This document shows, piece after piece, positions 26,442 to 35,351 of a stretch of DNA of 64,000 nucleotides. Where the stretch lies: NCBI GenBank assembly GCA_016208305.1, contig JACQYI010000009.1, positions 186,001-250,000 on the forward strand, written 5' to 3'. The position numbers and the translations under genes are program-made. The notes beneath the pieces were generated by a model that was not told the DNA's origin, ran no database searches, and was given only the letters and a program-made list of their open reading frames with translations. The DNA is from Oscillatoriophycideae cyanobacterium NC_groundwater_1537_Pr4_S-0.65um_50_18 (GTDB lineage Bacteria > Cyanobacteriota > Cyanobacteriia > Elainellales > Elainellaceae). Each line of letters opens with the position of its first letter. Within the stretch, counting starts at the first letter, position 1.

Positions 26442-27059
26442 CTAATCCTGCGGCAGCTCCAAGTGAAAGAGTTCGCCAATTTTCGTATATTCAACGGCAC
26501 CGCCCAACCGCGTGATCGGCTTCATCCGCATGGTGTCTACCAACCCCATCTCGGCTCGGTAGAGATCCTCACGCACATGAAATCTCACAACTCGTCCCAG
26601 CACCATGACATTGGTTGCCCCTTCAATGGGCGTAATTTGAGTCACCTTACATTCCATCGCGATCGCAGCTTCTGCAATTCGAGGCGGACGCACATCTACC
26701 GAAGCGATCGTTTTCAGATGGGCGGTTTCAAATTCATTTACGCCATAGGGCACCTCAACGGCTGTGCGGATCATGGCATCCGCTAGGGCTTCATCGACCA
26801 CATGGCAAACGAACTCATCCACCTGTTTGACGTTGCGTAGCGTATCTTTCTCTCTCGGCTCTTTGCGGCGATAGGCCACCGAAAACATCAGCGTCGGCGG
26901 AAATCCGGCTACAGCATTGAAAAACGAGTAAGGCGCAAGATTGGGCACACCCTCAGCGCTAATGGTGGAAACCCAGGCGATCGGGCGGGGAGCAACGATG
27001 CTAGTCAGCAGGCGATAAGGAGCAGGATCGGCCATCTCGGAGGGCACAAAAGAAATCAC
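26442..27059 (-). CDS. Flavin reductase family (FMN-binding split-barrel) protein
   Basis: The 205-residue protein has the flavin-reductase pattern RLLTSIVAPRPIAWVSTISA near the N-terminus, NLAPYSFFNAVAGFPPTLMFSV and VTQITPIEGATNVMVLGRVV. Such proteins bind FMN and transfer electrons from NAD(P)H to free flavin or to a partner oxygenase. GAGGAG precedes the GTG start at 27059. It follows the Moco oxidoreductase by 55 bp and is the last gene of the minus-strand redox cluster, so it may be part of that unit or simply co-transcribed. The substrate is unknown. Confidence 0.85.
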   Translation of the reverse strand: MISFVPSEMADPAPYRLLTSIVAPRPIAWVSTISAEGVPNLAPYSFFNAVAGFPPTLMFSVAYRRKEPREKDTLRNVKQVDEFVCHVVDEALADAMIRTAVEVPYGVNEFETAHLKTIASVDVRPPRIAEAAIAMECKVTQITPIEGATNVMVLGRVVRFHVREDLYRAEMGLVDTMRMKPITRLGGAVEYTKIGELFHLELPQD

Positions 27060-27114
27060 TCAAAACTCCTCGTCACTTTTTGGGTAAGTCTAGATGGGGT
27101 AAGTCTAGTTTAAG

Positions 27115-27837
27115 CTAGAGTCCGGCAAACCACTCATAGCCTTTATCCTCCCAGTATCCGGTCATCGGATAAAGCTGTTTCGTGAGGGTGATCTCAGTGA
27201 CCCATTTGCTCTGCTTGTAGCCCAGCTTAATGGGAGATGCGAGCCGCAGCGGTGCGCCATTTTCGGGAGACAGGGGTTGACCATTCTTTTGATACACCAT
27301 CAATGTTTGCGGATGCATTGAAGAAACGAGATCCCAGCTTTCGTAATAGCCATCTGCTGACTTGAAATAGACATATTTTGCCCCTGGTTTAGGCTTTGCC
27401 AGCGCGATCAGATCGCGCAATGGCACCCCTCCCCACTGGACAACGGCCGCCCATCCTTCGACACAAACATGCCGAATCACCATCGAGGTCGAGGGCATGC
27501 TTTGCAGTTCGGCTAGATTGAGCGTAAAGGAGCGCTCGACATCCCCATTGACGGACAAAAGATAAGATTGGGGATCAATCTTGGGGGTGCCCTGAAAAGA
27601 GTTGATCAACAGGGCTTCAGGTTCGATCGCGCTTAAGGGCAGATTGGGAATGAGTTTTTGAGGGTTGAGCAGCAGTTCCTCAACGCTCTGGTTTAGTGGC
27701 TCAAAGACGCTATTGACCTGATCGCTGTAAAGGCTGGTGCCACAGCCACCCAACACTAAACCCAGCCCCGAAAGTCCAGATAGCTGAAGCAGACGACGAC
27801 GAGACAGCAAGCGATCGGAGATTGAAGGGGATTCCAC
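27115..27837 (-). CDS. SUOX-like molybdopterin-dependent oxidoreductase, Tat-exported
   Basis: An N-terminal Tat signal (SRRRLLQLSGLSGLGLVLGG) runs into a Cys (GGCGTS) that could be a lipobox. The domain of about 160 residues is an oxidoreductase molybdopterin-binding fold of the sulfite-oxidase family: the Mo-ligand Cys in VIRHVCVEGWAAV, then WGGVPLRDLI, SADGYYESWDL and GYKQSKWVTEI. Family members include MsrP (YedY), which reduces methionine sulfoxide in periplasmic proteins. This one is shorter than MsrP, so I do not name it so. The best start is the GTG at 27837 behind TTGAGG; the frame reaches a TTG at 27849. A membrane cytochrome b gene lies 78 bp upstream, the MsrPQ-like arrangement. 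Confidence 0.88.
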   Translation of the reverse strand: MESPSISDRLLSRRRLLQLSGLSGLGLVLGGCGTSLYSDQVNSVFEPLNQSVEELLLNPQKLIPNLPLSAIEPEALLINSFQGTPKIDPQSYLLSVNGDVERSFTLNLAELQSMPSTSMVIRHVCVEGWAAVVQWGGVPLRDLIALAKPKPGAKYVYFKSADGYYESWDLVSSMHPQTLMVYQKNGQPLSPENGAPLRLASPIKLGYKQSKWVTEITLTKQLYPMTGYWEDKGYEWFAGL

Positions 27838-27915
27838 GAAAGACCTCAACTAAAATACTGCAACAAGGGCAAAATGGGTGATGAACCATCTAAGGAATCG
27901 ATCGACTAAGGGAAC

Positions 27916-28527
27916 TTACCAAAAGATTGAATTAATCAAACGTAAACCGCCCACCCTTAGCGCCATCAACGAATGCACAAGAGAAAATAGAAGTACCGTC
28001 GGAACGCTGATAAAGTGAACCACTCGTAGCGCTTGCCAGCTACCAAATAGATCCACAATCCAGTGAAACTGAGCAGGCTTGTACATACCCAGCCCCGTGA
28101 GAACCGCCAGCAGCAAGATGGGAATTACTGCCGTGTAGAGCAGGCGATGCCAAGCATAGGCTTTACGCTTAGGGTTGCGTCCTGTTTGCAGCGCCTTCAA
28201 GTCTGATGCACTCGCAAACCGCCGCTGCCAGCGCCGAGAGATCAGAATATATAGACCGTACCACAGCAAGTTCAGCGCAAAAAACCACATAGCGGCAAAG
28301 TGCCAATGCCTGCCGCCCGCGAGCCAGCCGCCCAGCAGAAACGGTGTGGGGAACTGCCAGCCGCCTCGTCCGCCGAACACAGGATTAGCATTGTAAATTT
28401 GCAGTCCGCTTGTGATCATCAACAATAAGCTAATGATATTGACCCAGTGAAATACCTTGGCAAGGATAGTCTGATGCGGTATCGGCGGGGCTTTCGATCG
28501 CTTTGCGGGTGCAGGGGATGAAGTCAT
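27916..28527 (-). CDS. Membrane cytochrome b (b561/b6-type)
   Basis: The 203-residue membrane protein has four or five helices and heme-ligand-like histidines: HQTILAKVFHWVNIISLLLM (helix 1), GGRHWHFAAMWFFALNLLWY (helix 2), AYAWHRLLYTAVIPILLLAVL (helix 3) and LRVVHFISVPTVLLFSLVHSL (helix 4). It matches the cytochrome b/b6-domain family that feeds or drains electrons for periplasmic Moco enzymes. Placed just upstream of the exported Moco oxidoreductase, it is the likely membrane electron partner of that enzyme, in the manner of MsrQ for MsrP. Direction of electron flow is not shown by the sequence. Confidence 0.88.
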   Translation of the reverse strand: MTSSPAPAKRSKAPPIPHQTILAKVFHWVNIISLLLMITSGLQIYNANPVFGGRGGWQFPTPFLLGGWLAGGRHWHFAAMWFFALNLLWYGLYILISRRWQRRFASASDLKALQTGRNPKRKAYAWHRLLYTAVIPILLLAVLTGLGMYKPAQFHWIVDLFGSWQALRVVHFISVPTVLLFSLVHSLMALRVGGLRLINSIFW

Positions 28528-28570
28528 AAGATGAAAATTAGGATGAGTGAGTTATGAGGTAGAGATATTT

Positions 28571-29320
28571 TTAGAGGGGCAGCGGGGGAAAGAGCGGAGC
28601 CAGCCAAAGCTGAACCTTGAGATCCCAGCCGAGGAGAATCGCGATCGCTGTTCCCGCCAGCAAAAACCCACCGATCCGTTGCAACAGAGCGCTGTGAGGA
28701 CGCAGACTCAACAGCCGCTGACTCACATAGCGACCCCCATAGGCGATCGCCAGCAGCGGTAGCCCTGTGCCAATGCCAAAGAAGAGCAGCAGCACAAAGG
28801 CAGATCCAGCCTGTCGCTGAACCGCCGCTAAGATAAGGATACTGCCTAGAACAGGGCCTGCGCAGGGTGTCCAGAGCAAACCTAGCTGTGTGCCCAGCCA
28901 AAACTCGCCCATTAGCCCTATAGGCTTCTTTGTTTCTTTGGCTATGGGCAGGGTAGGCACTAAGCTGAATAGGCGATAGCTCCACTGGGGAAAAATAGCC
29001 AGTAAGCCTAGCGTCAGCAGCAGGACGATCGCCCCATTTCTCAGCAGGGTTGCCAGTCCGGTTAGCCAGGTGGCGGTAATGCCTAACAAGCTCCCTATAA
29101 AAGCAAAGCCGCTGATCAGTCCTGCTACCAGCACCAGAGGAGCCAGCCTGTGAGATTGGAGCGATCGCCCCACCAACAGAGGCAGGATCGGCAGAACGCA
29201 AGGGGAACATACGGTCAACAATCCGCCTAAGAAAGCCAGTCCGGCTGATACGGGAGAGGCCGATAGCGAAGCGGCTCCCACGGGTGAGATGGCCAACGGC
29301 CAAAGTGAAAAAGTCATCAT
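28571..29320 (-). CDS. CcdA/DsbD-type transmembrane thiol-electron transporter
   Basis: The 249-residue, six- to seven-helix protein has the CcdA fold with Cys38-Ser-Pro-Cys41 in LTVCSPCVLPILPLLVG (helix 1) and Cys153 in LLWTPCAGPVLGS (helix 4); together these give the membrane-embedded cysteines that shuttle electrons from cytoplasmic thioredoxin outward. Its ATG overlaps the stop of the thioredoxin-like gene (ATGA), so the two are translationally coupled partners. In cyanobacteria CcdA homologues serve cytochrome c maturation; the extra Cys and the neighbours suggest a separate, dedicated copy for this cluster. Confidence 0.9.
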   Translation of the reverse strand: MMTFSLWPLAISPVGAASLSASPVSAGLAFLGGLLTVCSPCVLPILPLLVGRSLQSHRLAPLVLVAGLISGFAFIGSLLGITATWLTGLATLLRNGAIVLLLTLGLLAIFPQWSYRLFSLVPTLPIAKETKKPIGLMGEFWLGTQLGLLWTPCAGPVLGSILILAAVQRQAGSAFVLLLFFGIGTGLPLLAIAYGGRYVSQRLLSLRPHSALLQRIGGFLLAGTAIAILLGWDLKVQLWLAPLFPPLPL

Positions 29321-29970
29321 CCTGCGGCTAAGAGCTGCTGAATCAGAGTTTCGGTCTCCCCATAGGCACCTTCTCCGATATGGTCATAGCGGATCCGCCC
29401 TTGGCGATCGCTCAAAAACAGATGCGGCCAATACCGATTTTGGTAAGCGTTCCAGGTTTTGAACTCGTTATCCACAGCGTTGGGATAAGTAATCTTGGCT
29501 TGGTCTAAAGCGTTCTGAATGTTGCCAATGTCGCGTTCAAAAGGAAACTCTGGTGTATGAACCCCAACGATCGTCAATCCCTGGGAGGCATACTTTTGAT
29601 GCCACTCCACTACGTAAGGCAAGGTGCGCTGACAGTTAATGCAGGAAAATGTCCAGAATTGCACCATCACCACTTTGCCTGCAAGCCCGGCGATCGTCAG
29701 AGGTTCAGAATTGAGCCATTGCTGGATGCCTTGAAACTCTGGCATCGCTTCTCTGGCGGGAGGCAAGCTGGCATCAGACAGTTGAGCCATCTCAGTCGAG
29801 AGACTGCCTGAACTGGAGGTGGATTGCTCAGCCCTGGCTACGGCTAGATGCGGCTGACGATTGAGGTAATGAATCCCGGCTGCTGCCGCTGCGCCTGCTG
29901 CCCCAAAGCTCAGATAGCTCAAAACCTTGCGTCGGTTGGGGCGATCGGAATTTGTCCAGTCGTCTCTCAT
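29317..29970 (-). CDS. Exported TlpA/redoxin-type thioredoxin-like protein
   Basis: The 217-residue protein has a Tat-like leader (PNRRKVLSYLSFGAAGAAAA) and a spacer (about 40-85). A thioredoxin fold follows with active site Cys110-Ile-Asn-Cys113 (FWTFSCINCQRTLPYV), the TIVGVHTPEFPFE insertion, and a WPHLFLSDRQGRIRYDH segment. The SCINC site and insertion are those of the DipZ/TlpA-like redoxin group that takes electrons from CcdA/DsbD partners. It should act outside the plasma membrane, passing thiol electrons from the coupled CcdA-like protein to a substrate that may be one of the neighbours. Confidence 0.88.
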   Translation of the reverse strand: MRDDWTNSDRPNRRKVLSYLSFGAAGAAAAAGIHYLNRQPHLAVARAEQSTSSSGSLSTEMAQLSDASLPPAREAMPEFQGIQQWLNSEPLTIAGLAGKVVMVQFWTFSCINCQRTLPYVVEWHQKYASQGLTIVGVHTPEFPFERDIGNIQNALDQAKITYPNAVDNEFKTWNAYQNRYWPHLFLSDRQGRIRYDHIGEGAYGETETLIQQLLAAG

Positions 29971-30142
29971 AAATGTTGACCTGAATGTTGGCCTGAATGT
30001 TGGCCTTAGTGATAGTGAGGAATGGGCAATCGGCTTCTAGTCTCTTAAGGAGTAACCTCTTTGGGAGTTCAGGTTTCACCTCATGACCCATCCCATGTTT
30101 TGAGCAATGTGCAATTTAATTCTGATAACTTTGCTGAAATAA

Positions 30143-30457
30143 TTACTTTGCTGGGGGCTGCTGCATGGCATCACCAGGACTCTGCATAGCATCGCCTTTG
30201 TTCATCGCATCGCCGCCCATTGCATCCCCTTTATTCATCGCATCACCGGGACTTTGCATGGCATCGCCTTTGTTCATTGCATCACCGGGACTCTGCATGG
30301 CATCGCCTTTGTTCATTGCATCAGCCGGACTTTGCATTGCATCAGCCGGACTTTGCATCGCATCAGGAGAGACAGATGTAGGCTGAGTCGTGCAGGCAGA
30401 CAAACTGGCAATCAGGGCAAAACCAGCGACCAAACTAAACATTCTCTGAGTCATCAT
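30143..30457 (-). CDS. Methionine-rich repeat lipoprotein
   Basis: The 104-residue precursor has a lipoprotein signal (MFSLVAGFALIASLSAC, lipobox Cys22). The mature part of 83 residues is eleven DAM units spaced by NKG, QSPG, QSPA or GG, such as DAMNKGDAMQSPG. Every Met of the mature protein falls in a DAM unit, about 13% Met. It resembles the low-complexity methionine/aspartate repeat proteins (MXKDX type) of proteobacteria. Methionine-rich periplasmic peptides such as MrpX of Azospira act as sacrificial oxidant scavengers recycled by a YedY-type reductase. GGAGAG precedes the ATG. It is the first gene of the minus-strand redox cluster, 172 bp before the thioredoxin gene. Metal (copper) binding is an alternative role. 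Confidence 0.8.
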   Translation of the reverse strand: MMTQRMFSLVAGFALIASLSACTTQPTSVSPDAMQSPADAMQSPADAMNKGDAMQSPGDAMNKGDAMQSPGDAMNKGDAMGGDAMNKGDAMQSPGDAMQQPPAK

Positions 30458-30752
30458 TTCTCTCCGAAATAGTTAGGTTAAGCAGCACAACAAATTGAGC
30501 CGCTTTTAATTAAGCAACTCGTCAGCTGTATGCGGTCTAAAAGACTATTGCTAAAACTTCAGGTATGCCTAAATGCGTTAGCAGTCAGCGACTGCACCGA
30601 CAATTCACAGTATTGGCGGGCAACCTGAGAAACAGCTTAATGACGCATAAGAAAACTCAAATCATGCTGTTAATCTCAGCTTATTCAATCCTTAACTCAT
30701 CCGATTCCAGAGTTCTTCTAAGATACTGGCATCTTCATCTGAGCGAGGTTTT
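30458..30752. other. Divergent intergenic region (295 bp)
   Basis: It separates the methionine-rich lipoprotein gene (leftward) from the ABC-transporter binding protein (rightward). GAGCGAGG just before 30753 is the ribosome-binding site of the binding protein. No repeat or other gene is evident; both promoters should lie here. Confidence 0.4.
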
Positions 30753-31970
30753 ATGAGACAGTATCCTGACGAAGCTGAGCAGTACGTTGCCCGATTCACA
30801 GCTTCTTTACTGAGGCGGCGCAGTTTCCTTAAGTGGTGCGCAGCCTTTAGTACAGGCGCTCTCATTACTCAAGTCGCTTCCTGCACACAATCTACCCCTT
30901 CTTCGGGCAGCACCTCTCCTAGCTCCAGCGCGAGCAGCCCCACCACCGGAGAACTGCCTGTGACGATTCCAATGGAGGAGCTGATTGCCAAAGCCAAAGC
31001 CGAAGGACAACTCCGCGCCTATGGTATGCCGCCCGATTGGGCCAACTGGAAAGGCTGCTTTGATGCGCTTAAGGCAAAGTATGGGACTGAAAGCATCTAT
31101 GAACCCGAAGGCGGCTTGTCTTCGGCTGAGGAAGTGCAAAAGTTTTTGGCGGAAGTCAACAAGCCTGTCGGTGATATTGCCGATGTGGGCATTCTGTTTG
31201 GCCCTGAAGCAAAGGCCAAGGGCGCAACGGCAGCATATAAGGTATCGCGCTGGGCTGATATTCCAGATAACCTTAAAGATCCAGATGGGCACTGGGCCTC
31301 TAACTACGGTGGTGTCCTAGCCTTTGCTGTGAATCCTGACAAAGTTGGATCGGTACCCAAAACCTGGGCAGAACTGCTGTCGGGAAATTTCTCCAATATG
31401 GTGGCGGTTAACGGCGATCCGCGTCAGTCAAACAGCGCCTTGCTGGCGGTAATTGCGGCGGCCTACGCCAATGGCGGCAGCATTGACGATATTGAGAAAG
31501 GCGTCGATGCCTTCGCCCAACTCAAACAAAAAGGTAACTTTACCCCTGCAAAAGCAGATACAGCAGGCTTGCAATCCGGCGAGGTCGGCATTGCTATTAA
31601 ACCTGATTTCTTGGGGCTGACCGATCGCGACAAGTTTGCAGGCAATCCCAAAATCGAGGTGGTGATTCCCGAAGATGGTGCGGTTGCGACCAGCTACGCC
31701 CAAATCATCAATCGCGTTGCGCCTCATCCTTATACCGCTCGTCTCTTCCAGGAATACATCTTCTCGGATGAAGGTCAGCTTGAGATGCTGAAGGGCTATG
31801 TGCGTCCGACCTTGATTGACAAACTGACCATTCCTGCTGACCTCAAGGCCAAGCTTCCCGATGCAGCGCAGTACAAAAAAGTGGTTCCGGCGATCGTCGA
31901 TACCCAAAAGCTAGAAGCAGCCAAAAAAATTGTCACAGAGCAGTGGGGACCCAAGGTTCTAGGTCAGTAG
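30753..31970 (+). CDS. ABC transporter extracellular solute-binding protein
   Basis: The 405-residue protein has a twin-arginine-like leader (RRRSFLKWCAAFSTGALITQ) ending in VASC, a lipobox, then a Ser/Thr-rich linker and a class-II periplasmic binding fold (LRAYGMPPDWANWKGCFDAL, YEPEGGLSSAEEVQKFLAEV, GGVLAFAVNPDKVGSVPKTW, GEVGIAIKPDF, FSDEGQLEMLKGYVRPTL). The fold is of the Fe(III)/polyamine/phosphonate group (AfuA/PotD-like). It precedes two permease genes and an ATPase, giving one importer. Mobile repeats now occupy the 488 bp before the first permease. The substrate cannot be told from sequence alone. Confidence 0.88.
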   Translation: MRQYPDEAEQYVARFTASLLRRRSFLKWCAAFSTGALITQVASCTQSTPSSGSTSPSSSASSPTTGELPVTIPMEELIAKAKAEGQLRAYGMPPDWANWKGCFDALKAKYGTESIYEPEGGLSSAEEVQKFLAEVNKPVGDIADVGILFGPEAKAKGATAAYKVSRWADIPDNLKDPDGHWASNYGGVLAFAVNPDKVGSVPKTWAELLSGNFSNMVAVNGDPRQSNSALLAVIAAAYANGGSIDDIEKGVDAFAQLKQKGNFTPAKADTAGLQSGEVGIAIKPDFLGLTDRDKFAGNPKIEVVIPEDGAVATSYAQIINRVAPHPYTARLFQEYIFSDEGQLEMLKGYVRPTLIDKLTIPADLKAKLPDAAQYKKVVPAIVDTQKLEAAKKIVTEQWGPKVLGQ

Positions 31971-32072
31971 GGACTGCACACAAAATAAAACCGAATAGTT
32001 TTTTGGAAGTGCCTGCGCTCCATGCAGCATGACCCAAAAACTATTCCAGGTTAAAGGAGGATTCTAAGTTTC

Positions 32073-32233
32073 AGAGGCTGTTTGAAAAGTCCAATTATGG
32101 GTAGCGAAACGTTTCAGATCCCCCTAAATCCCCCTTCAAAAGGGGGACTTTGAATTCATTTTCCCTTTTTAAGGGAGCAGAGGGGAGCAGCAGGTGCCTA
32201 AAGATCACAGCCGACCCCTTTCAAACATCCTCT
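32073..32233. repeat. 161-bp palindromic mobile element, copy 1
   Basis: The ends AGAGGCTGTTTGAAAAG and the complement of AGAGGATGTTTGAAAGG form inverted repeats (15 of 17 match). The inside has CAGATCCCCCTAAATCCCCC, AGGGGGACTTTGAATTCATT and an AGGG-rich right half. It shares its ends with the element at 50543-50752 and its core with the insertion in the NACHT gene. It lies between the binding-protein and permease genes of the ABC importer. No transposase is encoded. Confidence 0.75.
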
Positions 32234-32243
32234 TAGCTTTATC

Positions 32244-32358
32244 TAAGTAGCTGGGACTCATTGAAGAGAAACTCTATGTAGGTTGGGTGAGGCACGTAGC
32301 TTGTTTCCCGCAGGGTAACCCAGCACCTGCTATTAATTCCACCCACCTGCTTATCAAT
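32244..32358. other. Second repeat-like stretch before the permease gene
   Basis: It begins AAGTAGCTGGG, like the end of the inverted-repeat element at 49118-49243, and includes GTAGGTTGGGTGAGGCACGT and CCCGCAGGGTAACCCAGCA. The TTCCCGCAGGGTA motif recurs in the element near 50690. It looks like a partial or degenerate repeat copy; no gene is seen. Confidence 0.4.
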
Positions 32359-32458
32359 ACCTTAAGTGATCTGGAGCTGGCAAAAAGATGGCAAAAAATT
32401 GTCGCAGGCTTTGGGACAACAATCCACGAAAACGAGTAGATTCGCTGTGGGTATTCTC

Positions 32459-33334
32459 ATGACTTTAGCTATCAAACCAGCCCGATCGTTTTGGGTGCGC
32501 TATCCCTGGGTTTCTACGGCGCTGGGGCTAGCTCCTATGGCGATCGGACTCATTGCTTTTTTGGTGCTGCCGATTCTGCTGATGGTGGTTAGCTCTTTTC
32601 AGACCGAGCAGGGCTGGTCGCTGAGCAACTATTTTGATACGGTACGAGGCGAGTATCTGCGGGCGTTTGCCACGACCCTAGAGATTTCTCTGGTGACGGC
32701 GATTGTGGGTGGGGTGCTGGGCACCTTGACAGCGATCGCCCTAGCTTGGGGCACCTCTAACCTCAACAATGGCTTACTCACGCTGGCTAGTGTAGCGGCT
32801 AACTGGGGTGGCGTGCCTCTGGCGTTTGCCATGATTGCGACGGTGGGCAACTCAGGCTGGATAACGGAACTGTTGCGATCGATCGGCTTTGACCTCTACA
32901 AACAGGGGTTCACCATCTACGGCAATTTGGGGCTGATTCTCACCTATACCTACTTTCAATGGCCGCTGATGCTGTTGCTCATGCTGCCCGCTGTGCAGCG
33001 GTTTCGGCAGCAGTGGCGCGAAGCCTCTGAGAGTCTAGGGGCAACCCGCAGTCAGTTTTGGCGTTGGGTGGCGATTCCCATTTTGGCACCCTCCATGATT
33101 GGCGGTATGGCGCTGCTGTTTGCCAATGCCTTTGGTGCCCAGGCAACGGCCTTTGCCTTGGCAGGCGGCGCGCTGAATTTGATCACGATTAAGATTACAT
33201 TTTTGGTCAAAGGGCAAACGGACTTTAATCCCGGTTTGGCTAATGCTCTGGCTGTTGAGATGACGGTTGTGCTGGCGATCGCTGTCATCATCTACCAGAG
33301 CACCAATCAACGTGCCCGTCGCTGGATGAAATAG
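32459..33334 (+). CDS. ABC transporter permease (first subunit)
   Basis: This inner-membrane permease has six or more helices (GLAPMAIGLIAFLVLPILLM first) and the binding-protein-dependent transport loop EASESLGATRSQFWRWVAIPIL, which docks to the ATPase. The ATG at 32459 gives a typical cytoplasmic N-terminus; the frame opens 31 codons earlier at a GTG (32366), but that extra piece resembles no permease. It forms the heterodimeric channel with the next permease, 12 bp downstream. Confidence 0.85.
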   Translation: MTLAIKPARSFWVRYPWVSTALGLAPMAIGLIAFLVLPILLMVVSSFQTEQGWSLSNYFDTVRGEYLRAFATTLEISLVTAIVGGVLGTLTAIALAWGTSNLNNGLLTLASVAANWGGVPLAFAMIATVGNSGWITELLRSIGFDLYKQGFTIYGNLGLILTYTYFQWPLMLLLMLPAVQRFRQQWREASESLGATRSQFWRWVAIPILAPSMIGGMALLFANAFGAQATAFALAGGALNLITIKITFLVKGQTDFNPGLANALAVEMTVVLAIAVIIYQSTNQRARRWMK

Positions 33335-33346
33335 CGAGGTAAAACC

Positions 33347-34159
33347 ATGACGCTTGCGCCGCTTGCTCCCCCACAGCCTACGCAGTCTTCTGCCTCAACC
33401 GATCGCGCAGGCGTTTGGCGATGGGTGCTGATTGCGGCACTGTTGATCTATATTTTTATTCCGATTGTCGGCCTGTTGCGGTTTAGCACGCGTGCTGCTA
33501 ACGGCATCAGCTTTCAGTTTTATCGCGATGCTTTTGCTGATCCTTCGTTCTATAGCTTTTTGGGCAACTCGCTGTTGGCCGCTCTGTGGACGATCGCCAT
33601 TACCCTAACCTTGACCACCTTCACGCTGTATTGGGCTTACCTGAAGGCGCGTTGGCTGCTGCCCTTGCTAGAAATGCTGTCGCTGCTGCCCTTTGTGGTG
33701 CCTGCTGTGACATTAGGCATTGGTTTGATTCAAGTGTTCACGACGCCGCCTTTGGCCTTGACCGGAACGCCGCAGCTCTTGATTGGAGCCTATGTCATTG
33801 TGACGCTGCCTTTTGCCTACCGTGCAGTCGAGAATAGCCTTCAGGGCGCGAATGTATTGACTTTAACAGAAGCCGCTGAGAGTTTGGGCGCAAGCTGGTG
33901 GAGAATCTTCCTGGAGGTGATCTTGCCTTGTGTCTGGTCAGGAGTGATTAGCGGTGGACTGCTGGTATTTTCCTTTGTGTTTGGTGAGTTTACGCTGGCG
34001 CTTTTTTTGGTCGGCTCTTCTTATCAAACCTTTCCTCTCTACATTCAGCAGCTTTATTCCTATCAGCCACAATATTCAGTCGTGATGTCGTTACTTTCCT
34101 TTTTGGCTACCTGGCTGGCGGCATGGCTATTGGTCTTGCTGACTCGGAGAAAAAATTAA
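33347..34159 (+). CDS. ABC transporter permease (second subunit)
   Basis: The 270-residue permease has six predicted helices and the coupling loop EAAESLGASWWRIFLEVILP. GAGG lies before the ATG. It pairs with the upstream permease; the PotB/PotC-like arrangement of two separate permeases and one ATPase fits the polyamine, iron or phosphonate importer group. The neighbouring genes give no further hint about the substrate. Confidence 0.9.
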   Translation: MTLAPLAPPQPTQSSASTDRAGVWRWVLIAALLIYIFIPIVGLLRFSTRAANGISFQFYRDAFADPSFYSFLGNSLLAALWTIAITLTLTTFTLYWAYLKARWLLPLLEMLSLLPFVVPAVTLGIGLIQVFTTPPLALTGTPQLLIGAYVIVTLPFAYRAVENSLQGANVLTLTEAAESLGASWWRIFLEVILPCVWSGVISGGLLVFSFVFGEFTLALFLVGSSYQTFPLYIQQLYSYQPQYSVVMSLLSFLATWLAAWLLVLLTRRKN

Positions 34160-34217
34160 TTCCTGTCTATTCTCTTTGATGTTTGATCTACGTTTTTAAT
34201 CTTTATCTTCTATACCC

Positions 34218-35351
34218 ATGTCATATCTAGAGTTAATTCATCTTTTTAAATCCTACGGATCGGTTACGGCGGTACAGGATGTTAACCTTCAAATTCCTGC
34301 TGGAGAATTTATTTCGTTGTTGGGGCCTTCTGGCTGTGGTAAGACGACCATTCTTCGGATGATTGCCGGATTTGAGAAAGCAACGGGTGGTTCCATTCTT
34401 CTAGAAGGCCAAGACATCACCCATATTCCGGCAAACCGTCGAGATATGGGCATGGTGTTTCAGTCCTACAGCCTCTTTCCCCATATGACGGCAGGACAAA
34501 ATATCGCGTTTGGTCTGCGGGTAAAGCGTCTGTCTCACGGACAGCAGCGAATTCGGATTCATGAAATGCTGGATTTGGTGGGGCTGGCGGGCATGGGCGA
34601 TCGCTATCCTCATCAAATGTCAGGCGGACAGCAGCAGCGGATTGCCCTAGCGCGCGCCTTGGCCATTTCACCTCGGCTGCTGCTGCTAGATGAGCCGCTT
34701 TCGGCGCTAGATGCCAAGGTGCGATTGCAGCTCAGAAATGAGATTCGCCGGATTCAGCAGCAGCTAGGCATTACGACGCTGTTCGTGACGCATGATCAAG
34801 AAGAGGCGCTATCCATCTCCGATCGCGTCATCGTCATGTCTCAGGGACGTATTGATCAGGCCGGTACGCCCGAAGAAATCTATCTCACGCCCAATACTGC
34901 TTTTACGGCTTCGTTTATCGGCGCAATGAATCAGATTCCAGGCATTTGGGAAGGTCATCAGGTGCGCGTTTCCACCCATCCTGATACGCATATCCCCGAT
35001 GAGTTTTTGCGAACTCAGGCGATGGATCTGCCGAAGGGTGCGCATGTTTTGGTGTTGGTGCGTCCTGAAAGTATTACTGTCCTAACGCCAGGAAGTTCAA
35101 TATCAGAGAATGACAATCTGCTGAGCGGATTAGTAACCAGCCGGATTTTCTTAGGTTCGGTGGTGCGGCTGTCGGTGCTGGTGGGAGAGTTTTATCTCAA
35201 TGTCGATGTCCCTACAGGTCAGGCAGAGCAGTTCAGCTCAGGTCATTTGGTGCAGTTGGAATTCCCCGCCGATCAATGTCGTGTTTTAGCGATCGCTCCT
35301 CCTTCTGTACAGCCTACATCACCTCAAAAACAGGCGCGATCGGCCGTCTAG
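34218..35351 (+). CDS. ABC transporter ATP-binding protein (PotA-like, with TOBE domain)
   Basis: The 377-residue ATPase has Walker A GPSGCGKTT (about 35-43), Q-loop VFQSYSLFPH, signature MSGGQQQR, Walker B LLLLDEPLSALD and the switch His in VTHDQEEAL. A C-terminal TOBE-type region (about 280-365; VLVLVRPESITVL) is common in the polyamine/iron/molybdate branch and can serve regulation. It is the last gene of the four-gene importer and is followed by tandem repeats and two hairpins that may end the transcript. Confidence 0.92.
   Translation: MSYLELIHLFKSYGSVTAVQDVNLQIPAGEFISLLGPSGCGKTTILRMIAGFEKATGGSILLEGQDITHIPANRRDMGMVFQSYSLFPHMTAGQNIAFGLRVKRLSHGQQRIRIHEMLDLVGLAGMGDRYPHQMSGGQQQRIALARALAISPRLLLLDEPLSALDAKVRLQLRNEIRRIQQQLGITTLFVTHDQEEALSISDRVIVMSQGRIDQAGTPEEIYLTPNTAFTASFIGAMNQIPGIWEGHQVRVSTHPDTHIPDEFLRTQAMDLPKGAHVLVLVRPESITVLTPGSSISENDNLLSGLVTSRIFLGSVVRLSVLVGEFYLNVDVPTGQAEQFSSGHLVQLEFPADQCRVLAIAPPSVQPTSPQKQARSAV

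Follow-up and report, generated by a model that had tools for sequence, protein, structure and literature searches.

Neisseria and Haemophilus carry periplasmic MsrA and MsrB, exported methionine sulfoxide reductases (Msr) of the thiol type that are fed by a membrane thiol carrier. In Azospira suillum and in perchlorate islands, mrpX-yedYZ is controlled by sigF/nrsF, and exported msrA/msrB accompany it on some of the islands (PMC4623255, which cites Melnyk et al. 2015). The bcrXQP genes of Brucella melitensis are under bcrS/abcS extracytoplasmic function (ECF) control, are induced by hypochlorous acid (HOCl), and contribute to HOCl resistance (PMC8315932). Here, a set of genes from Oscillatoriophycideae cyanobacterium NC_groundwater_1537_Pr4_S-0.65um_50_18 is compared with these systems. 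The DNA analyzed (the window) is a stretch of 64,000 nucleotides, corresponding to C41:186001-250000 of the source genome (G000; 6.9 Mb in 85 contigs). Six consecutive minus-strand genes at positions 26442-30457 of the window encode a methionine-rich (Met-rich) lipoprotein, a TlpA-like protein, a CcdA-like protein, a b561-type cytochrome, a molybdenum cofactor (Moco) oxidoreductase, and a flavin reductase-like protein. The first five probably constitute an envelope buffer for methionine oxidation that is served by two lines of repair.

Judged from its sequence, the set probably works like the MrpX/YedYZ kind of system without being a member of it; the logic is the same and the parts are largely non-orthologous. 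Like MrpX-YedY1/YedZ1, the set encodes an exported Met-rich protein together with a membrane cytochrome b and a Moco enzyme; exported MsrA/MsrB occur in some clusters of either system, and an ECF sigma/anti-sigma pair, present in that system, adjoins the set in relatives. Unlike that system, the Met-rich protein is a lipoprotein with DAM units, a cytochrome b561 (PF01292) takes the place of YedZ, and the Moco enzyme is a short SUOX protein that is not a YedY orthologue. A TlpA/CcdA thiol donor is added, and the anti-sigma factor is of the RskA type in relatives, with none adjoining the window set. Given differences in the Met-rich protein, the cytochrome, the subfamily of the Moco enzyme, the anti-sigma factor, and the promoter, and given the added thiol donor, the set is regarded as a variant and not as a member. 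BcrXQP likewise joins a Met-rich exported protein (an MXKDX protein) to a Moco/cytochrome pair (MsrQP-like genes), with ECF-controlled promoters ahead of both the sigma and the Met-rich genes, as found here in relatives (PMC8315932). The promoter there is of the GTAAC/CGAA type rather than ATCCR-N15-CGTA, the cytochrome is a different one, and no thiol line is reported (PMC8315932). By analogy, what it shares with the bleach defence of Azospira and Brucella is a putatively sacrificial exported protein rich in Met, a Mo/haem pair of reductase proteins and, in relatives, control by an ECF factor. A description of this cyanobacterial set was not found in the open-access literature, which misses most subscription journals.

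An earlier interpretation of the window from its letters alone (the sequence-only reading) had proposed a lipoprotein with eleven DAM units and about 13% Met in the mature part. Both figures were reproduced by counting: the mature protein of 83 residues contains 11 Met (13.3%) and 11 DAM units. A signal peptide and a lipobox Cys (LSAC) are present, the lipobox Cys22 is invariant in 10 aligned relatives, and a lipobox is found in 29 of 36 Met-rich proteins. The Met residues stand singly within the DAM units, mostly 5-7 residues apart and not as MxM or MxxM, and His is scarce, with any His in the Met-rich part of just 2 of the 36 proteins. The number of DAM repeats differs even between members of the genus. 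No Pfam or NCBIfam family was matched by the lipoprotein. For the MXKDX family (TIGR02953), the window protein gave no match, two of its 10 relatives matched (best 9.7e-29), and a second Met-rich protein of the window genome scored 32.6 bits, below the cut-off of 41. Exported Met-containing relatives of the lipoprotein with no redox gene of the set adjoining were observed in two genomes (L170:6831-7373 and L171:7249-7707). At L169:6473-7607, a Met-rich segment is fused to a peptidoglycan-binding domain (PF01471) immediately ahead of an MsrB gene.

The TlpA-like and CcdA-like proteins have the features of a thiol relay. The former is an exported protein with a CxxC thioredoxin fold whose active-site residues (Cys110/Cys113) are kept in 40 of 40 relatives, and the latter matches CcdA/DsbD_TM with two membrane Cys residues (Cys41/Cys153) that are kept in 37 of 37. 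The closest solved structure to the TlpA-like protein is the C-terminal part of mycobacterial DipZ (E 9e-54), a fused CcdA-TlpA protein. The same combination of CcdA with a TlpA-like domain is encoded here by separate genes, and the C-terminal DipZ extension is absent.

Genes neighboring the set in relatives encode exported MsrA (PF01625) and MsrB (PF01641). Both are present in the clusters at L038 and L047, MsrA at L048, L044, and L090, and MsrB at L043, L061, and L175. The L038 copies were scanned against Pfam, the other loci were assigned by similarity to L038, and export was read from N-terminal hydrophobic segments and not with a signal-peptide program. The window genome has a second locus (L144:4425-8678, G000:C49) at which the gene for another exported Met-rich protein (128 residues, 16 of them Met) precedes those for exported MsrB and MsrA and for a two-component system of the heavy-metal type; a similar Met-rich/MsrB/MsrA set is found at L055 in G003, a genome of the same genus. 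Msr enzymes of the 1-Cys type need an outside thiol donor. The exported MsrA of the window genome contains just one Cys, and the sole Cys residues of the MsrB are the catalytic and zinc ones, so both need an external donor, and this need provides a clear role for TlpA/CcdA. The TlpA/CcdA line thus most likely feeds exported MsrA and MsrB. The thiol-electron route of the sequence-only reading survives as far as the TlpA/CcdA pair is concerned, on the evidence of domains and conserved Cys residues; its service to the Moco cycle is less likely, the exported MsrA/MsrB of the clusters being the favored recipients. Such an arrangement is like that of Neisseria and Haemophilus in combining exported thiol-type Msr with a membrane thiol carrier, and unlike it in that MsrA and MsrB are separate here and have a dedicated Met-rich partner. 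In a membrane protein of 438 amino acids encoded elsewhere in the genome (L187:1276-2592, G000:C41:739491), one half is CcdA-like (DsbD_2) and the other MsrQ-like (Ferric_reduct); it is possibly a fused thiol/haem electron carrier.

As in MsrPQ (YedYZ) of Escherichia coli, an exported SUOX-fold Moco enzyme is encoded with a membrane cytochrome b. Five His residues of the cytochrome are conserved in 79 of 79 cases, the Mo-ligand Cys129 of the Moco protein is invariant, and the closest named relative of the latter is from Drouetiella hepatica (88%). MsrP is the best sequence match of the Moco protein, yet the score of 95.4 bits falls below the NF003767 equivalog cut-off of 207, and the window genome has a canonical MsrP at another locus (L186:1171-2151, G000:C4:1002446; 396.2 bits against the same cut-off). 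Assignment as an MsrP orthologue was therefore rejected. The cytochrome was likewise rejected as MsrQ/YedZ, as it belongs to PF01292 rather than to Ferric_reduct (PF01794); no MsrQ above the cut-off was found in the window genome, whose sole PF01794 protein reaches 51 of the required 130 bits. Scores of the Moco protein against the SorA, SorT, and SoxC equivalogs were 24-65 bits for cut-offs of 420-600. PF00174 was its only Pfam domain, and the C-terminal dimerisation domain of sulfite oxidases/dehydrogenases was not found. The first structural model, made from 16 sequences, was poor, with a predicted local distance difference test score (pLDDT) of 64; the second, from 90 sequences, gave a pLDDT of 76 and confirms the predicted SUOX fold. 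In the fold comparison, MsrP was the top match in Foldseek and SorA the top match by Z. The fold of the model does not discriminate MsrP from sulfite dehydrogenase, so the structural comparison with MsrP that the sequence-only reading had called for settles the fold and not an MsrP-specific substrate. The exported Moco oxidoreductase of the SUOX family is upheld by the domain, Cys129, and the 90-sequence model; YedY- and YedZ-type parts are not. Although not filed as MsrP, the enzyme may work like it, and it is most likely fed by the cytochrome b561.

Conservation of the set was surveyed in 60 relative genomes and subsequently in 244 genomes drawn across the phylum. Among the 60, a lipoprotein match was found in 15 and a Moco match in 17, and in eight genomes the two lie at most ~5 kb apart on one contig. 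Four strong lipoprotein matches (E<1e-18) were obtained outside the profile genomes (G180, G245, G086, and G176). All four lie within ~4 kb of the Moco gene and adjoin b561-Moco, and three also adjoin TlpA-CcdA; two weaker matches (G218 and G176 C1:757986) have no adjoining redox genes. The order lipoprotein-TlpA-CcdA-b561-Moco is kept across several genera at L035, L036, L037, L038, L039, L041, and L042, the last two with one additional gene between lipoprotein and TlpA. It recurs with one inserted gene at L048, and at L043/L044 the set is divided between two contigs. At the ECF-bearing loci L174 (G245) and L175 (G180), the units are inverted relative to one another and still adjacent. This speaks for selection acting on the set and against an inherited operon frozen in place; at L061, which also bears ECF genes, the units are likewise rearranged and adjacent. 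The sequence-only reading had made its proposal depend on conservation of the lipoprotein beside the redox genes in other cyanobacteria, and this was borne out in several genera and by each of the four strong new matches.

At 70 named Moco loci with sufficient upstream sequence, a Met-rich gene of the DAM type is present at 16 of 25 loci with TlpA and CcdA and at 1 of the 45 that lack them (Fisher p 1e-8, kinship not corrected). The corresponding counts for a wider set of loci, which share kinship, are 25/35 and 3/55. The Met-rich protein mainly accompanies the combined set of TlpA/CcdA and b561-Moco, and the b561-Moco pair is also a stand-alone unit that is common in heterocystous genomes. 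Met-rich, b561, and Moco genes without TlpA/CcdA are found at L040, L047, L054, L073, and L176. L040 (G048:C1), in a genome that we take to be Gloeobacter violaceus PCC 7421, combines them with ECF/RskA genes and the ATCCR-N15-CGTA motif; its gene content suggests an old core of the set. Genes for DM13 (putative electron transfer) and DUF4079 membrane proteins recur beside the set at L041, L042, L066, L111, L122, L138, L176, and L183.

In several families, genes for an ECF sigma factor and an RskA-type anti-sigma factor adjoin the set. The motif ATCCR-N15-CGTA has 27 matches, located upstream of ECF (9), Met-rich (11), TlpA (3), and b561 (4) genes. With the same boxes at every other spacer from 8 to 25, 0-1 matches each were obtained, and 76 permuted motifs gave a mean of 0.57 matches and a maximum of 6. 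Among the 11 Met-rich matches, those at L037 and L096 come from one genome. Since the motif was derived from regions upstream of ECF and Met-rich genes, the counts for these are partly circular; motif discovery did not draw on the sites of TlpA and b561 genes, nor on those of the Met-rich genes at L101, L138, and L037/L096. At L061 and L175, the motif precedes four of four units. In the ECF-bearing relatives, the sigma, lipoprotein, TlpA, and cytochrome units are probably one regulon under one ECF sigma/anti-sigma switch, and the ECF factor would read this motif. The window set has no adjacent ECF gene, and the closest ECF genes of the source genome lie elsewhere. A weak match 38 bp ahead of the window Moco gene (score 11; true sites at least 17 save one) is not claimed as a site. 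Sigma-70 promoters and terminators inside the operon showed no excess over shuffles. A block of ~160 bp upstream of the lipoprotein gene is near-identical in three genomes of the genus.

In the proposed mechanism, the lipoprotein would be anchored at a membrane face, where its many exposed, flexible Met residues would react with strong oxidants (HOCl, singlet oxygen, peroxide, or similar) to give methionine sulfoxide. Reduction by the first line would proceed from cytosolic thioredoxin through CcdA and the exported TlpA/DipZ-like protein to exported MsrA and MsrB; in the window genome, these would come from the second locus, behind the second Met-rich protein. In the second line, photosynthetic or respiratory quinol would reduce the cytochrome b561 and, in turn, the exported Moco enzyme, whose action would resemble that of MsrP or be directed at a related S-oxide. 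One ECF sigma factor with its RskA-type anti-sigma factor would turn on all transcription units of relatives through one promoter motif. We infer the identity of the oxidant, the direction of electron flow, and the quinol donor, as well as the lipoprotein being a substrate of either enzyme and both lines acting on the same pool. The support in hand is gene content, conserved linkage, catalytic residues, recurrent co-clustering of exported MsrA/MsrB, and the shared promoter-like motif of relatives. We hold only tentatively, as somewhat short of probable, the fuller version with one sacrificial lipoprotein, parallel repair by thiols and by quinol/b561-Moco, and an ancestral dedicated ECF factor acting via ATCCR-N15-CGTA, possibly already in Gloeobacter. 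The single repair cycle envisaged in the sequence-only reading is retained for five genes, on linkage, exported Msr in the clusters, and the motif of relatives; the flavin reductase drops out.

Several observations weigh against this buffer-and-repair mechanism. Shared control of the separate units is indicated by the common motif in ECF-bearing relatives, but the motif was not found upstream of the lipoprotein or TlpA gene of the window. With a canonical MsrP elsewhere in the genome, the Moco enzyme of the operon need not be a methionine sulfoxide reductase. The tree yields just 4 supported independent contrasts for the TlpA/Met-rich association (~2 agree, 0.1 disagree) and is underpowered. 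No Met-rich gene was detected nearby at 10 of the 35 TlpA/CcdA loci of the wider set, and the b561-Moco pair stands without one at 52 of the 55 loci lacking TlpA/CcdA; a pair that so often lacks a Met-rich neighbor may act on a different substrate. That last point, which holds for many heterocystous and other cyanobacteria that have neither Met-rich nor TlpA/CcdA genes, also favors an explanation in which only the thiol half (lipoprotein, TlpA, CcdA, and exported MsrA/MsrB) repairs Met. The b561-Moco pair would then have a function of its own, for instance in oxidising sulfite or reducing a different S- or N-oxide, and would be co-regulated through oxidative stress only. The second MsrP and the ambiguous fold match agree with such a division. 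The five loci that combine Met-rich, b561, and Moco genes without TlpA/CcdA do not, nor do the lone PF00174 domain, lacking the dimerisation domain expected of sulfite oxidases/dehydrogenases, and best sequence matches to MsrP. We judge this division unlikely, though deserving of some weight.

Copper or soft-metal handling, with the lipoprotein binding Cu(I) and TlpA/CcdA maintaining reduced metal-site thiols, appears improbable. Met-rich exported segments of several known proteins do bind Cu(I), and the two-component system next to the second Met-rich/MsrBA locus is similar to heavy-metal sensors. In Caulobacter, sigma-F controls a YedY gene and responds to chromium and cadmium (PMC3511200). 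The scarcity of His and the single Met residues of the DAM units argue against this role, as do the linked genes, which are MsrA/MsrB and Moco genes and not copper pumps or oxidases. Repeat lipoproteins are common and diverge fast, and the variable repeat number within the genus would also suit an accidental run, in which a hypervariable lipoprotein gene merely lies next to TlpA/CcdA genes of the cytochrome-maturation type. Linkage in new genomes across families, units that are rearranged but adjacent, and one motif across units make such an accident very hard to credit.

The features of the operon are collected in Table 1. The number, strand, and order of the genes given by the sequence-only reading, with no gap above 172 bp, agree with the coordinates; the gaps in transcription order from the lipoprotein are 172 bp, an overlap, 43, 66, and 55 bp. 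The ATGA coupling of the TlpA-like and CcdA-like genes is present (29320/29317). The assigned identities (thioredoxin-like, CcdA-like, cytochrome b, SUOX-family Moco, and flavin reductase) agree with the Pfam domains AhpC-TSA/Redoxin, DsbD_TM, Ni_hydr_CYTB, Oxidored_molyb, and Flavin_Reduct, each above its cut-off. The flavin reductase was rejected as a component, being missing beside the Moco gene at both same-genus loci (L035/L036) and present at 0 of 25 named loci bearing TlpA/CcdA. Genes for a divergent solute-binding protein and an ABC transporter (window 30753-35351) adjoin the lipoprotein gene and are kept in the genus; their profiles are of the 2-aminoethylphosphonate/iron type, with scores below the cut-offs.

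Table 1. Features of the window operon (window positions)
Feature	Position	Strand	Characteristics
Met-rich lipoprotein	30143..30457	-	104 aa, lipobox LSAC (Cys22), 11 DAM units
Exported TlpA/DipZ-type thioredoxin-like protein	29317..29970	-	twin-arginine start, CINC active site Cys110/Cys113, AhpC-TSA/Redoxin
CcdA/DsbD_TM membrane protein	28571..29320	-	Cys41 and Cys153 conserved; ATGA overlap with TlpA gene
Membrane cytochrome b561-type protein	27916..28527	-	PF01292 (Ni_hydr_CYTB), conserved His
Exported SUOX-fold Moco oxidoreductase	27115..27849	-	244 aa, TTG start, PF00174 only, Cys129 Mo ligand (HVCVEGW)
Flavin reductase-like protein	26442..27059	-	PF01613; judged a neighbour, outside the module
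Intergenic block, probable promoter region	30590..30752	.	between lipoprotein gene and divergent solute-binding gene; ECF motif of relatives absent

Oxygenic phototrophs generate oxidants all day and, to our knowledge, the repair of oxidised methionine outside their cell membrane has hardly been described. The only cyanobacterial report found concerns Limnospira, in which an MsrP-like gene was named and its MsrQ partner was not readily found (PMC8400943); a b561 partner could account for the elusive MsrQ. The set described here would bring a regulator and two sources of electrons together with a sacrificial protein in one testable regulon, and it may represent the Met-sponge strategy built in another phylum from largely non-orthologous parts.

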